Positions 12,484-61,650 of a stretch of DNA of 64,000 bases are shown here, piece after piece. The position numbers were made by a program, and so were the translations under genes. The notes beneath the pieces were generated by a model. That model did not search any database. It was not told the DNA's origin and saw only the letters and a list, made by a program, of their open reading frames with translations. The DNA is from Candidatus Bathyarchaeota archaeon (lineage in GTDB: Archaea > Thermoproteota > Bathyarchaeia > Bathyarchaeales > Bathycorpusculaceae), in the NCBI GenBank assembly GCA_026014595.1, contig JAOZHY010000016.1, forward strand, positions 1 to 64,000. The letters are read 5' to 3'. Position 1 is the first letter of the stretch. Every line of letters starts with the position of its first letter.

Positions 12484-13287
12484 GTGCCGCTTGCGAAACG
12501 TATAGTGCCCTGCTTGGACGTGACCTGCGGCAGAGTGGTTAAAGGCATAAATTTCCTGAACCTGAAAAACGCGGGCGACCCTGTAGAACTGGCGAAGCGC
12601 TACTCAGATGAGGGCGCGGACGAACTGGTTTTCCTCGACATAACCGCCTCCGCGGATAACAGGAACATACTGCGCGGCGTCGTGGAAGGCGTCGCCAGAG
12701 CCATAAGCATCCCGTTCACGGTGGGCGGCGGAATCCGCAACGTCTCCGACGCCCGTCTGGTGCTGTGCAGCGGCGCGGACAAGGTTTCAGTAAACACAGC
12801 GGCGGTTGAGAATCCTCAGGTGATAACACGGCTTGCGGACGTGTTCGGACAGCAGTGCGTGGTCGTGGCCATTGACGCGAAAAGAAGGCGCTACAAGGCA
12901 GAGGGCAAGATAACCGTGGAAACCCGCGAGGGACCAGTATGGTTTGAGGTGTACACTTACGGGGGAAGAAAGCCCACGGGAATAGACGCTGTTGGCTGGG
13001 CGCTGCGGGCTGCGGAGCTCGGCGCCGGCGAGTTTCTGGTAACTTCGATGGACAGGGACGGCACCGAAGACGGCTACGACATCGAGTTGACGCGTGTCAT
13101 TTCTGAGCGCGTTAAAGTTCCAGTCATTGCAAGCGGCGGCGCAGGCATACCTGAGCATTTTCTTGAAGTTTTCACGAAGGGCAAGGCAGATGCGGCGCTG
13201 GCGGCATCGGTTTTCCACTACAACAAGTATCCTGTCCAAGTTGTGAAAAAGTTCTTGCGGGAGCAGGGGGTGAATGTGAGACCATGA
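12484..13287 (+). CDS. hisF: Imidazole glycerol phosphate synthase subunit HisF (GTG start)
   Basis: [36 protein letters not shown]; start 12484 in frame with track ORF 12316. Confidence 0.95.
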
Positions 13288-13619
13288 CGAACGAGGAACT
13301 GCTGAAAAAGCTGGATTTCAAGAAGGGCAACGGACTCATCCCAGTGGTCGTGCAAGACGCCGAGTCCAAAGCACTGCTTATGCTGGCTTACGTCAACGAG
13401 GAAGCCCTAGAGAAGACGCTGAAGACGGGTTACGCGCACTATTGGAGCCGTTCACGCGGCAAACTGTGGATGAAGGGCGAAACCTCAGGACACACGCAAA
13501 AAATCAAGCGCGTCGTGGCAGACTGCGACTACGACACGCTGTTGTATGTGGTAGAGCAGAAAGGACCAGTATGCCACACAGGCGCAGAAACGTGCTTCCA
13601 CCACGAGTTTGAGTGCTAG
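13284..13619 (+). CDS. hisI: Phosphoribosyl-AMP cyclohydrolase
   Basis: [47 protein letters not shown]; no HisE domain. Confidence 0.95.
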
Positions 13620-13661
13620 CCGAGATTTTTTAGGCTCTGCTGCTGGGGAAATGCTTCCTCT

Positions 13662-13714
13662 CTACCCTCTATAGATTTCTGCAATGAACCTCTATTAGGC
13701 TCCAAATATGCTGG
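13662..13714 (+). repeat. Dispersed intergenic repeat, copy A
   Basis: CTACCCTCTATAGATTTCTGCAATGAACCTCTATTAGGCTCCAAATATGCTGG; aligns with copies at 60101-60153 and 42811-42862 (reverse). Confidence 0.7.
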
Positions 13715-14539
13715 TTAGCCGCTTTCCTCGTTCAGAAAAGCAAGGACGTCTTCGTCAAACTTTTTTCCCATAATATTCATGTGACCCTTGCCTTCGTAAA
13801 GGACAAGCTTAGCATTCGGGATTTCAGCCGCTGTTTCACGGAACCGCTCCACTGGGCAATAGTAGTCTTTGTCGCCGCCAATCACCAGTGTAGGCGCTTT
13901 AATCTCCGCAAGCCTGTTTTTTGAGTTATGCGCCATTTCCGCCTTGCCTTCCACAAGCAAATCTACAGGATTGCCGACTGTGAGCCACATTAAAGGAGCA
14001 ATGTAACCCATGAAAAACTTCATGAACGCTTTCGTTATTCTGCCACCTTCTATTAGGGGATACATAGTTTTGAGAGCCTCCCTCTTTTTGCCTTCACTAA
14101 GCAGCTGCGCATATTTCATGTCTAATTCGTTTCCTTCCTCGCTGAATCTGTAAACAGACATGGCAATGACTAAGCGGCGGATTAGTTCAGGGTGGTCAGC
14201 GGCCAAATGTTGCGCAATCAACCCGCCATACGACATGCCCATCACATCAACAGGTCCACCATCAAACTCGTCTCTGATTATTGCCGCATAGTCTTCAGCC
14301 ATATCTCGTGTGGTGTAACTCTGTGGAAGCTCATTCTTCCTGGACATGGCGTAAATCACAAAATTCTTGGATAGGTGCTTAAATTGACCAAACACTCGAA
14401 TCATGAAGCCTGATGGAAGAGTGATGCCGGGTCCACCGCTGAAAACAAGCAAGGATTTCTCGCCTTCACCGAAGCAGACATAAGGAACCCCGTTGCTAAA
14501 CACTCCTTTCTCAACCATAATTCTAAACTCCGCAACCAT
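13715..14539 (-). CDS. Alpha/beta hydrolase
   Basis: VMGMSYGGLIAQHLAADHPELIRRLVIAMS, APTLVIGGDKDYYCP, EGKGHMNIM. Confidence 0.88.
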   Translation of the reverse strand: MVAEFRIMVEKGVFSNGVPYVCFGEGEKSLLVFSGGPGITLPSGFMIRVFGQFKHLSKNFVIYAMSRKNELPQSYTTRDMAEDYAAIIRDEFDGGPVDVMGMSYGGLIAQHLAADHPELIRRLVIAMSVYRFSEEGNELDMKYAQLLSEGKKREALKTMYPLIEGGRITKAFMKFFMGYIAPLMWLTVGNPVDLLVEGKAEMAHNSKNRLAEIKAPTLVIGGDKDYYCPVERFRETAAEIPNAKLVLYEGKGHMNIMGKKFDEDVLAFLNEESG

Positions 14540-20069: not shown

Positions 20070-20436
20070 CTTAATCCTATCTTTATCCACAATCTCAGTC
20101 TGCGCTGACGCAATTTTTTGTCTGTAGCTTTTTTAAATATACTGTAAATAATTCTGAAAGCTCTGTCTGGTCGGAGCAGACTCAATCCATTATTTAAAGG
20201 TGAATAGCGTTTCTGTATAGCTCTATGTCGATGTTTGATGCATTCAACACTACTCGGCATAATAAAAGGGGGGCTATAGTTTCTTCCATGCGCTACTTCT
20301 ATACATTTTTCGCGTGTTGTTCCTGACCCGCAACAGCATCAGTATTTGGAAAACACAGTACATAGACTAGGTTATTAAGCGCGAACTTGAAAATAAAACT
20401 GCCTAAACCCTTAAACTAATAAGGGGAACCAAACGC

Positions 20437-38919: not shown

Positions 38920-39189
38920 GCAATGTGGATCTTCAGGGCTGAAACCTCATGCATACCGCCTTTTCTAACATTCTAATTACATAGCCTAGTCTCAGACAGA
39001 ACTGCTGATGCACCTTGCAACATATTTTCTAAATTTCGCACCGTATGGCTTCTTTATAAGAGTTGTCGTCTAGAACCACACGTCGATTTGACAAGCTCGT
39101 AGCAAGCGTAGAATCGCCAATAACCAACAATCAAAAACGGTCTGGAACATAGAAATCTTTAGATACCTCATGCAACTCAAATATCAGAA

Positions 39190-40816: not shown

Positions 40817-42775
40817 ATGAAGTCAGCCATGCCTTCAGAAAACCCGTTTGCACTCTTCCGCAGCGAATGCGAAACCGCCTTAACACATGCGCTGCAGAAG
40901 GTTCTACCTGGAATAAAAGTTGAGACGCTAACATTTAGCAAGCCACCGAATATCGAGTTTGGGCAACTTGCCTCTTCGCTATGTTTTGAGTTGGGGAAAA
41001 AACTCAACCAAAAACCCGGTGACTTGGCTACACACTTGGCTAAAACTGTTGGCAAACAAAAATTCACACTGCTCAACAAGGTTACGGCTGTAGGCGGCTA
41101 CATCAATTTTCACGTAGATTTTCCCAAATTTTCTTTTTTAACGCTGGAATCCATCAGGCAGTTGGGATCGGTGTACGGTTTTGTCAAAACGGAAAAACCC
41201 TTGAAAATCATCGTGGAACACACCAGCGTCAACCCGCTCCATCCAATACACATCGGGCAAGCCAGAAATCCCATGCTAGGTGATGCGTTGGCACGGATTC
41301 TAAAGCAGAGGGGACACATGGTTTCTCGCCACTACTACATCGATGACGTTGGTCGTCAATCCTCGGTAATTGCTTACGGCTACCAAAAACTCGGTTGCCC
41401 CGAACCTGACGAGAAGGCAGACCATTTCGTGGGCAAAATATACACCATAACAAGCTGTTTGGTGGAGATTAACCGTTTGAGAAAGAATTTGGAGCTTGCC
41501 AAAGCTGTTTCACCCGCTGACGAGGTTGCGAGAATCACCAAGGAAATTGACGAATGGATGTCTATTGCCGCTGAACTTAAAGAAAAGTATCCGGCGCTGT
41601 TCGAAAAACTGATGACAAAAATCAGCGAAGACGAGAACCCTGAGGAAGAAATTAACAAGTTAAATCGCGCTTATGAAGACGGAGAACCTGAAGCGAAGCG
41701 ACTTATCCGCGAAGTCAGCGAGCTATGCCTAAAAGGTTTCAGGGAAACGCAGGCGCGTGTGGAAGTTTATTACGACTCATGGGATTGGGAAAGCGACTTT
41801 GTCTGGAGCGCCCAGGTCACCGAGGTTCTCAGGAAACTGAAGAGTTCTCCGTTTGTTTATAGTGAAAACGGAGTTCTGGAGTTTGACGCTGAAAAGGTGG
41901 TTCGCATCCTCAACTTGAAAACCAAGCTGGGGTTGGGAGAAGATTACGTTGTTCCGCCCTTGACTCTTGTTCGGGCTGACGGCACCACACTCTACACCAC
42001 ACGTGACATAGCTTACTCGCTGTGGAAGTTTTCGCGAGCGGAAAAAGTCATAAACGTGATTGGTATGGAGCAGTCTCTGGCGCAGTTGCAGCTAAAAATC
42101 GCCCTGTACGCTTTAGGCTACGACAAGTACGCAGACAACTTTGTTCACTTCGCCTACAACTTGGTCACGCTTCCAGGCTACAAGATGAGCAGCCGCAGAG
42201 GACGCTACATTACCTTCGACGAAGTCCTAGACGAAGCAGTTGAACGAGCCTACGAAGAAGTCTCAAAGCGGTCACCCCAACTGAGCGAGGCTGAAAAACG
42301 CGAAATCGCTAACTTTGTGGGCATCGGCGCAGTGCGCTACGCGCTGGTTGACGTTGACGCCTCGAAGCCCGTGGTTTTCACCTGGGACAGAGTGCTCAAC
42401 TTCGAAACCAACAGCGCACCCTACGTGCAGTACACACACGCCAGAGCCTGCAGCATCCTGCGCAAAGCGGAAAAGAAACCGGAAAAACCTGCGTTTGAAC
42501 TGCTGACGGAGAAGCTGGAGCGCGAACTCGTCTTAGCTTTAGCCAGTTTTCCCGACACATTCATCGAAGCCGCAGAATTCCTAAAACCCAACTTCCTCGC
42601 GGACTACGCGAACTCGCTGGCAGACAAGTTCAACACCTTCTACAACGCGCTGCCAGTCATCAAGGCGGAACCGCGAGGGCTCAGCGATGCAAGGCTAGCC
42701 CTGACAGACGCCATCCGCATAGTGCTCCACAACGCGCTCAATTCAATCGGGATTCTGGCACCAGAACGAATGTAA
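40817..42775 (+). CDS. argS: Arginine--tRNA ligase
   Basis: VEHTSVNPLHPIHIGQARNPMLGDALARIL (HIGH-like), YKMSSRRGRYITFDEVLDEAVERA. Confidence 0.95.
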   Translation: MKSAMPSENPFALFRSECETALTHALQKVLPGIKVETLTFSKPPNIEFGQLASSLCFELGKKLNQKPGDLATHLAKTVGKQKFTLLNKVTAVGGYINFHVDFPKFSFLTLESIRQLGSVYGFVKTEKPLKIIVEHTSVNPLHPIHIGQARNPMLGDALARILKQRGHMVSRHYYIDDVGRQSSVIAYGYQKLGCPEPDEKADHFVGKIYTITSCLVEINRLRKNLELAKAVSPADEVARITKEIDEWMSIAAELKEKYPALFEKLMTKISEDENPEEEINKLNRAYEDGEPEAKRLIREVSELCLKGFRETQARVEVYYDSWDWESDFVWSAQVTEVLRKLKSSPFVYSENGVLEFDAEKVVRILNLKTKLGLGEDYVVPPLTLVRADGTTLYTTRDIAYSLWKFSRAEKVINVIGMEQSLAQLQLKIALYALGYDKYADNFVHFAYNLVTLPGYKMSSRRGRYITFDEVLDEAVERAYEEVSKRSPQLSEAEKREIANFVGIGAVRYALVDVDASKPVVFTWDRVLNFETNSAPYVQYTHARACSILRKAEKKPEKPAFELLTEKLERELVLALASFPDTFIEAAEFLKPNFLADYANSLADKFNTFYNALPVIKAEPRGLSDARLALTDAIRIVLHNALNSIGILAPERM

Positions 42776-42810
42776 AAAAAGCCTAAAACATGATACTGTC
42801 TCTTAGCCCA

Positions 42811-42862
42811 CCAGCCTATTTAGAGCCTATTGATGGTTCGTTACAAGAACCATAGAGGAGAT
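42811..42862 (-). repeat. Dispersed intergenic repeat, copy C
   Basis: Reverse complement ATCTCCTCTATGGTTCTTGTAACGAACCATCAATAGGCTCTAAATAGGCTGG aligns with copies A and B. Confidence 0.7.
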
Positions 42863-43145
42863 CGCTTCAAAGCAGAGGACTTCGTTGTTTATAGAGGGGC
42901 TATAGCCTCCGCGCGCCAGCACCGAACCCTGACCGAAACCAGCCACAGCAGCCGCAACTTAAAACATTCAAATTGCAAAATAACAGAGTGCAAAAGTCAT
43001 TCATATGGAAAACCGACCTGCTTCACGCTACCACTGTTTTCTGGTGAATCATGTTAAGGCTTCATGTTTTTTATCCAAAAATGTACCAAAAGCTGATAAA
43101 CCCCTTTTTTCTCTACACACAGGCATCGTCAGAAGGGAATAAAAA

Positions 43146-59871: not shown

Positions 59872-60100
59872 TTTAGCGTCACCTTGGAGCTTATACTATT
59901 TGCGTGTTTTAATATAAACAGTTATGGTGAGAAGCCGTTTACTGGGCGACTTGTAATTCGGGTCTTCGGGAATGTGGCGAGTTGGCTTGGTTTGTCGCTG
60001 TTGGTTGCTGCTGACTGCGATTCTGTTGTGCGATTTTTCGTCTGCAGCCCGCCCTTATTCAAAGACGCATGGATAGCGCTGACAAACCAGCAAGCAGACC

Positions 60101-60153
60101 CTACCCTCTCCTAGTTCCTGCATAGAACCACTAATAGGCGCCAAATAGGCTTC
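60101..60153 (+). repeat. Dispersed intergenic repeat, copy B
   Basis: CTACCCTCTCCTAGTTCCTGCATAGAACCACTAATAGGCGCCAAATAGGCTTC. Confidence 0.7.
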
Positions 60154-60289
60154 TGTGCTATCAGCGCGGGGACATCTGCCCTCCCCTTTTAAGGGAAAAA
60201 ACCGGTTGCGAAAACGGAATAAACGTTGCTAGAAAGATTATTCCTGTTGCGTTTTTGAAGTAGACCAGCAGGGTCTCAACCGATTATGG

Positions 60290-60907
60290 CTATTTTCTTG
60301 ACATTTTAGCGAACAGTTTTTCAGCTATTTCCAGCTCTTGCACCGTGTTGATGTTAACGGCAACCTCCTCAAGGTCCAGCAGGAAGACTTCTTGGTCGAG
60401 CTCTTTCTCGTCGATTCTGCGTCCGTCAATCACGTTGATTCCCGCGGGAACCATGCGCCTGTTCGCCATCACAAAGGAGTAATCTCCAGCCAAGCCCAGC
60501 TTCTCCTTCGTTTCCATCGGTACCACCACCGCCAGCGCAGGCTTCCCGCACCGCTCATAACGCTCTATGATGGCGTCCACGATTTCGCCTGTGATTAACG
60601 GAAGGTCAGCTGCCACAGCCATCACGGTCTGCAGCTTCAGCGCTTTAACGGCGTAGCCCAAGTCAAAAACGTATTCTCTTCCAGGAGTCTTAACCACCGT
60701 GACTGGGAACCCAGTCATCAATTTTTCGGTTTTAGGTGTGTAATCGCTGACCGCAACCACTATGGAATCAATTTTCCGCGCGTTCCCCAGTGCCGCAAGA
60801 ACATGCTCGATGACGGGTTTGCCGCCGACTCGCAACAGAGGCTTCTCTTCCGAACTCGCCATGCGGGTGCCTTTTCCGCCAGCCATGACAAGTGCCGTTA
60901 CGCCCAC
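60290..60907 (-). CDS. cobY: Archaeal-type adenosylcobinamide-phosphate guanylyltransferase (GTG start at 60907)
   Basis: VTALVMAGGKGTRMASSEEKPLLRVGGKPVIEHVLAAL; directly precedes cobS/cobT block. Confidence 0.87.
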   Translation of the reverse strand: MGVTALVMAGGKGTRMASSEEKPLLRVGGKPVIEHVLAALGNARKIDSIVVAVSDYTPKTEKLMTGFPVTVVKTPGREYVFDLGYAVKALKLQTVMAVAADLPLITGEIVDAIIERYERCGKPALAVVVPMETKEKLGLAGDYSFVMANRRMVPAGINVIDGRRIDEKELDQEVFLLDLEEVAVNINTVQELEIAEKLFAKMSRK

Positions 60908-61650
60908 GCAATCACCGCCAACAAAACGATTAGCGAAGACATGCGTACAAGCTCGTTCGTGGCGCCCAAAACGTCTCCTGTTACGCCTTTGAAGTGCCTG
61001 TGCGCTATTCCGACAATGACAAGGCTCGCCACGACGGCTGCAATCACGGTTACCGCGCCTGCCAACCACAACAAAGGCACTGATATGGCAAAAGCAATTA
61101 TTAAGGCGGCGACTAGGCGCGCATTGCCTTTCCCGCCGTGCATGGCTTCTAGGAACGTGGAAGCCATGCCTTGATGCACTGCTTTTCCAGCCCAAGCTCC
61201 AACAACCATTGCCAGCTTCGCCGCGACTTCAACCACCACGATACTCTGAACAATTATGCCCTGGTTCAGTTCGGCTATGGCTAAGGCAGTGACTAGGAAA
61301 GTCATGATGCCCAAGGATAAGCCTCCCGCGCCAGTCAACTGGTCGTGCATTATCTCGATTTTTCTTTCGGGTGTGCCGTGAGCCATGACGCCGTCGCCGA
61401 AATCCAACAAACCATCGGTGTGGTGAAGTCCCGTGATGAGCAGCAGGACTCCCAGCACCAAGGCGCCCACAACTAAGCCTGGGAGAAACTGGTAAGCCAC
61501 CCAGCCAAAAACGCCAGCTAGCAGTCCGATGAACGCGCCTACAAGGGGAAAAACAAACATGTATCTTGCAGCGTCGGTCAGCATGTCCTTGTCCATGCTA
61601 ACTGGAATGACCGTGAGAAACGAAAAAATGTTCTTAATCTCTTTAAGCAC
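60898..61650 (-). CDS. cobS: Adenosylcobinamide-GDP ribazoletransferase
   Basis: FSFLTVIPVSMDKDM...FPLVGAFIGLLAG...LLITGLHHTDGLLDFGDGVMAHGTPERKIEIMHD. Confidence 0.93.
   Translation of the reverse strand: MLKEIKNIFSFLTVIPVSMDKDMLTDAARYMFVFPLVGAFIGLLAGVFGWVAYQFLPGLVVGALVLGVLLLITGLHHTDGLLDFGDGVMAHGTPERKIEIMHDQLTGAGGLSLGIMTFLVTALAIAELNQGIIVQSIVVVEVAAKLAMVVGAWAGKAVHQGMASTFLEAMHGGKGNARLVAALIIAFAISVPLLWLAGAVTVIAAVVASLVIVGIAHRHFKGVTGDVLGATNELVRMSSLIVLLAVIAWA

Follow-up and report, generated by a model that had tools for sequence, protein, structure and literature searches.

A modular intergenic repeat at junctions of chromosomal rearrangement in a family of Bathyarchaeia

The window, which is the whole 64-kb stretch of DNA analysed here, carries three copies (A, B and C) of a short repeat in intergenic positions. 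On sequence grounds the window is assigned to Bathyarchaeia; its argS protein is 95% identical to that of the congener A05DMB-2 (G001). The earlier note had placed the three copies essentially correctly, and profile search adjusts their boundaries to those given here.

13284-13619, plus strand, hisI, left neighbour of copy A
13660-13716, plus strand, copy A, right module only, profile E=3.9e-14, at a synteny breakpoint
13715-14539, minus strand, alpha/beta-hydrolase gene, right neighbour of copy A
40817-42775, plus strand, argS, with copy C just downstream
42809-42865, minus strand, copy C, right module with a degenerate left part, profile E=8.6e-8, at a synteny breakpoint
60094-60155, plus strand, copy B, right module only, profile E=1.4e-10, at a synteny breakpoint
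60290-61195, minus strand, MobA/IspD-like nucleotidyltransferase gene, with copy B downstream of it

The three copies are members of a much larger family. A 27-bp pattern made from them matches three times in the window, against 0.02 matches expected from shuffles, and 57 times in the whole 2.06-Mb genome (31 on one strand, 26 on the other). The reversed pattern, used as a control, has no match, so that the copies are not merely three chance-level resemblances. The profile search proposed in the earlier note was run with a sequence-only profile built from 39 complete copies, and gives 91 matches in the genome at E<=0.1, of which about 85 fall below 1e-3. When the 11-mers in 304 kb of the genome are ranked, those at the top are without exception from this family, and no other repeat found in the genome exceeds it in abundance. 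Copies share ~0.80 identity within the genome (~20% divergence), and some are arranged in tandem. Judged by simple longest-ORF gene calls, the cleanly placed copies lie between convergent (14), divergent (8) and tandem (26) genes, and both orientations of the repeat occur. The literature searched contains no description of this repeat. It is a previously undescribed, modular, intergenic dispersed family of about 90 copies in an uncultured archaeon. The earlier view of an unnamed dispersed intergenic family was right, and the candidates listed with it were put forward cautiously.

Alignment of the copies shows that a complete element is ~98 bp long and consists of a left module, a C/T-rich spacer and a right module. 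The left module, TTTTCAACATGG-TTTGGCG-N8-CGCCAATAGCGAC (also written TTTTCAACATGGTTTGGCG…CGCCAATAGCGAC), is present in 43 of the 57 pattern matches. The right module (CCCTCTATAGGTTTCTGCAACNAACCACTAATAGGCNCCAAATAGGCT) is ~50 bp long and is the best conserved part; its conservation extends across genera. All three window copies belong to a truncated minority that retains only the right module, the left part of copy C being degenerate; the length of ~50 bp first proposed is therefore superseded by ~98 bp for most copies, which have the left module upstream. The right border is sharp, and the flank upstream of the left border tends to be C/T-rich. In the right module the first TAGGC and the CAAATA hardly differ between copies and the second GGC is variable, such that the tandem AATAGGC-N4-AATAGGC described from the window holds only in part for the family. 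Two left modules fused in inverted orientation occur at G001:C37:35155-35253 (L224:15155-15253), possibly as an aberrant product of recombination.

Conserved RNA structure does not characterize the family. RNAalifold places 0 consensus base pairs over 39 copies, and the GTTC/GAAC hairpins seen in individual window copies are not conserved. The covariation check that had been suggested, run in the same way, detects no covarying structure. The only palindrome, TTGGCG/CGCCAA in the left module, has weak support (paired in 83% of cells; 28 of 500 shuffles equal or better), and neither this nor the RNAalifold result indicates a conserved palindromic unit of the REP/REPIN kind. An Rfam search of the window gives no match at the three copies. 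A structured RNA family is thus disfavoured, as are the small RNA and structured terminator among the candidates of the earlier note, given the missing covariation and Rfam match and the occurrence of the element in both orientations and in every type of intergenic region. A regulatory protein site, also on that list, may remain a candidate.

High copy numbers occur in several genera belonging to a single Bathyarchaeia family (genus and family labels are those of the search tool), as the search of relatives called for at the outset has shown. The element is present in high numbers in our genome (G000) and in G001, G002, G018, G025, G033, G042, G045 and G048, whereas other genera of that family have few copies or none. 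Outside that family it was not found at E<=1e-5 in 151 genomes drawn from the phylum. Copy number also varies within a genus, with 41, 45 and 0 copies in genomes of g18. A copy follows argS in several genera; those just behind argS in L070, L072, L076, L077 and L094 are on the strand opposite to that in the window genus. In one genome with only two matches, a copy (G003:C42:3633-3726, L151) approaches the consensus almost as closely as our own copies do, which may reflect a recent transfer or a contaminating contig.

Each window copy marks a point where collinearity with A05DMB-2 ends. The left flank of copy A (hisI) corresponds to G001 contig C15 and the right flank to C44, with an element at both places, and the remaining two ends of these junctions meet in our genome at C27:79578. 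Our genome therefore reads hisI, element, hydrolase and X, element, PCNA-like gene, where A05DMB-2 reads hisI, element, PCNA-like gene and X, element, hydrolase (the PCNA-like label is a reading of the start of the downstream gene, made without a family search). The flanks in this four-way set are 87-92% identical, and the set is a closed reciprocal exchange within right-module-only copies of ~57 bp. On the argS side of copy C, collinearity with G001 extends over C37:87531-91329 as far as an element at 91262-91319; the other side maps 50 kb away at C37:141937. The left flank of copy B is collinear with C37 up to an element at 158698-158750. Its right flank is found on C1:52164, where no element was detected.

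This behaviour is common over the portion compared, which comprises 304 kb of our genome (about 15%) and ~800 kb of A05DMB-2, a single congener; both genomes are draft assemblies in many contigs. When 6-kb pieces of A05DMB-2 centred on elements are matched to our genome, their two sides usually fall at two different element loci. Both flanks of 22 A05DMB-2 elements could be traced to positions beside our elements; 20 rows (18 distinct junctions once tandem copies are merged) join different elements, and two are unchanged. Flank polarity is kept in all 65 matches, left to left or right to right, with none inverted. Each element thus keeps one orientation with respect to either flank, and exchange runs through it; new insertion at the breakpoints would give mixed polarity, and is argued against. 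For 14 of 40 collinear-block ends on the larger contigs an element is found <=50 bp away, compared with a mean of 0.48 (maximum 6) under rotation and of 2.1 (maximum 8) for random intergenic positions, each over 2000 rounds. Testable intergenic gaps are broken in 10 of 11 cases with an element and in 21 of 64 without (Fisher p=0.0004). About a third of element-free gaps are therefore broken as well, and element-free breakpoints exist, for example on contig C30 near 39043-39079 and 141505-141581. Breakpoints at repeats, partner copies and kept polarity, the marks of repeat-mediated junctions, are all observed. Between C17 and A05DMB-2 C78/C20 blocks have been exchanged and inverted elements stand at their edges, a pattern that two successive inversions would give, the order of steps being inferred. 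Between the two species, which share ~90% DNA identity, almost all traceable sites have switched partners. The tRNA genes show no general enrichment near elements. A further motif, TTTAAA-N(2-6)-GGGGGCTATA, recurs near genes and breakpoints (window 20250-20300; L205 on G001 C15; G000 C17:169400) and may represent a promoter (TATA-box) or a different short repeat.

The pattern is repeated in a second genus. In g25, eight elements have a strong flank match between G042 and G025. The opposite flank is matched in two of these and unmatched in six, which were scored as rearranged; for some of the six it was compared with the partner locus only, and loss of the flank is possible instead. In two of them (L317 and L342) both flanks were found beside different elements, and polarity is kept in all strong matches. 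Tandem copies are common in G025. Contigs C15, C47, C48, C64 and C109 of this genome begin or end at an element or within 25 bp of one, consistent with an assembly broken by repeats or with alternative junctions coexisting in the population.

The copies appear to be points where this Bathyarchaeia lineage reshuffles its gene order, a role that was not among the candidates of the earlier note and that is invisible from a single sequence. We consider it probable, at roughly 60%, that the dispersed intergenic repeat is a crossover site of chromosomal rearrangement, most likely homology-directed, and that its copies are the crossover points. Two copies would pair in register and exchange would occur inside the repeat, so that what lies left of one copy ends up joined to what lies right of the other; copies in opposite orientation would yield inversions. 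Such pairing and exchange would explain both the polarity and the reciprocal products. The process would be homology-directed and accompanied by gene conversion. The comparisons demonstrate the family and its range, breakpoints that coincide with copies, kept polarity, one closed reciprocal exchange and a recurrence in a second genus pair. We infer that the repeat causes the exchange rather than marks permissive sites, and that the enzymes are of a RadA-type, annealing or template-switching kind. Nearby inverted pairs in our genome have a right-module identity of 0.918, against 0.847 (p=0.0004), and two such pairs stay identical past the repeat and on into the left flank, a feature suggestive of gene conversion. 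A05DMB-2 does not show this homogenisation, and general homogenisation of recombination partners is not significant. In parental mapping, the interior of junction elements follows neither parent, with little signal and no step or crossover point; recurrent exchange or conversion would have such an effect. Ordinary homologous recombination does not fit easily, since the repeats are short and imperfect (~0.80 identity) and fall well short of the length of identity, 500 bp, reported for the process in Thermococcus kodakarensis (PMC5495485). An archaeal integrase, by comparison, can invert segments as short as 104 bp (PMC5495485). Homology-directed exchange is favoured here, with a dedicated recombinase kept as a serious rival.

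That the repeat is the recognition site of such a recombinase, for example a tyrosine recombinase, is possible but doubtful. The ~50-bp right module would then suffice and no long homology would be needed, in keeping with exchange inside a ~57-bp imperfect repeat, with the strict polarity and with the conservation of the right module across genera; the 104-bp inversions by the archaeal integrase also speak for it. All ten tyrosine-recombinase genes found <=2.5 kb from an element are on its right side. However, most of these integrases border on tRNA genes, and at some loci chromosomal genes intervene between integrase and element. Low-copy genomes frequently encode tyrosine recombinases too, and the identity of some inverted pairs beyond the repeat suits conversion better than site-specific exchange. 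A serine recombinase was rejected, as no serine resolvase exceeds the family cut-off in the high-copy genomes. Only tentatively, then, can one picture a genome-wide dedicated site and a putative archaeal recombinase through which the family actively reshuffles the chromosome in blocks of roughly 5-25 kb. If true, this would be a natural counterpart of engineered loxPsym shuffling.

A mobile element of the MITE or REP-like type that is still inserting, with the rearrangements secondary to transposition, is unlikely. High copy number, intergenic bias, the patchy numbers in g18, the tandem copies in G025 and copies missing from the orthologous site in A05DMB-2 would all fit. Yet at the two sites where one species has the element and the other lacks it, the difference amounts to ~257 and ~590 bp rather than to the element alone, and junction polarity is preserved. 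The MITE-like candidate of the earlier note, in its classical form with terminal inverted repeats and target-site duplications, is unsupported: the ends TTTTCAACATGG and AAATAGGCTGGTT are not complementary, and over 47 copies the mean shared flanking word is 0.85, compared with 1.30 for shuffled flanks. Y1_Tnp (PF01797, RAYT) is absent from our genome (G000) and from G001, G002, G018, G025, G042, G045 and G048. This leaves G033, with 2 matches, as the one genome encoding it among the eight further high-copy genomes searched, and mobilisation by RAYT is rejected. The longer element pattern also matches no virus contigs, where 15-mers occur at chance level only. More unlikely still is a functional chromosomal site, bound by a nucleoid or regulatory protein, that coincides with breakpoints because its surroundings tolerate breakage and both keep clear of genes and operons. 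Such a site might well display the strong conservation of sequence in the absence of RNA structure, the position behind argS in several genera and the direct AATAGG repeats about 11 bp apart, but random intergenic positions and element-free gaps are far less often at breakpoints and the junctions run from copy to copy in register. Repeat-induced mis-joins in draft assemblies, suggested by G025 contigs that end exactly at elements, are barely credible as an explanation: typical reads are longer than the repeat, whose copies diverge by ~20%, the pattern recurs in independent assemblies and in two genera, and the four-way exchange is reciprocally consistent.

Repeats that drive rearrangement are familiar, and are usually kilobase-long insertion sequences or rRNA operons; here an imperfect repeat of ~50-98 bp lies at most traceable junctions. 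The family resembles bacterial REP/BIME and REPIN sequences with their RAYT in being high-copy, short, intergenic, modular, present in both orientations and sometimes tandem. It differs from REP/REPIN in its unrelated sequence, in the absence of a whole-unit palindrome and, G033 excepted among the genomes searched, of RAYT, and its defining behaviour is location at rearrangement junctions. The pneumococcal BOX and the Neisseria NIME/dRS3 are likewise modular intergenic repeats, the latter linked to recombination, but the present family has another sequence, belongs to another domain of life and lacks conserved RNA structure. Prokaryotic MITEs are also short non-coding repeats (reviewed in PMC10969869), although with terminal inverted repeats and target duplications not found here. 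An archaeal parallel is provided by the IntpTN3 inversions of Thermococcus, which likewise occur between short inverted sequences of the chromosome. The breakpoints there are located in tRNA genes and other, unrelated pairs of paralogous genes (PMC5495485), whereas here there is one dedicated repeat family with no integrase tied to it. With this repeat, genome plasticity in an abundant, little-cultured archaeal lineage acquires a defined molecular handle, and archaeal recombination of short diverged sequences becomes a testable question.

The tRNA genes are the usual attachment sites of integrases. The element was not counted as such a site, since tRNA genes mostly lie between or beside the integrases and chromosomal genes intervene at some loci. 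The integrases at L281, L282, L283, L284, L285, L253, L286 and L280 form a diverse family (35-52% identical), placed mostly beside tRNA genes and on the right side of the nearby element. Several of them have weak N-terminal zinc-ribbon matches. An integrated replicon next to tRNA-Gln, encoding a tyrosine recombinase, a D5-like helicase and an AEP primase, adjoins an element; it is present in our genome (L063:10009-14809, G000 C17:210009-214809) and in A05DMB-2 (L278:8573-13311, G001 C43), and the two integrases are 94% identical.
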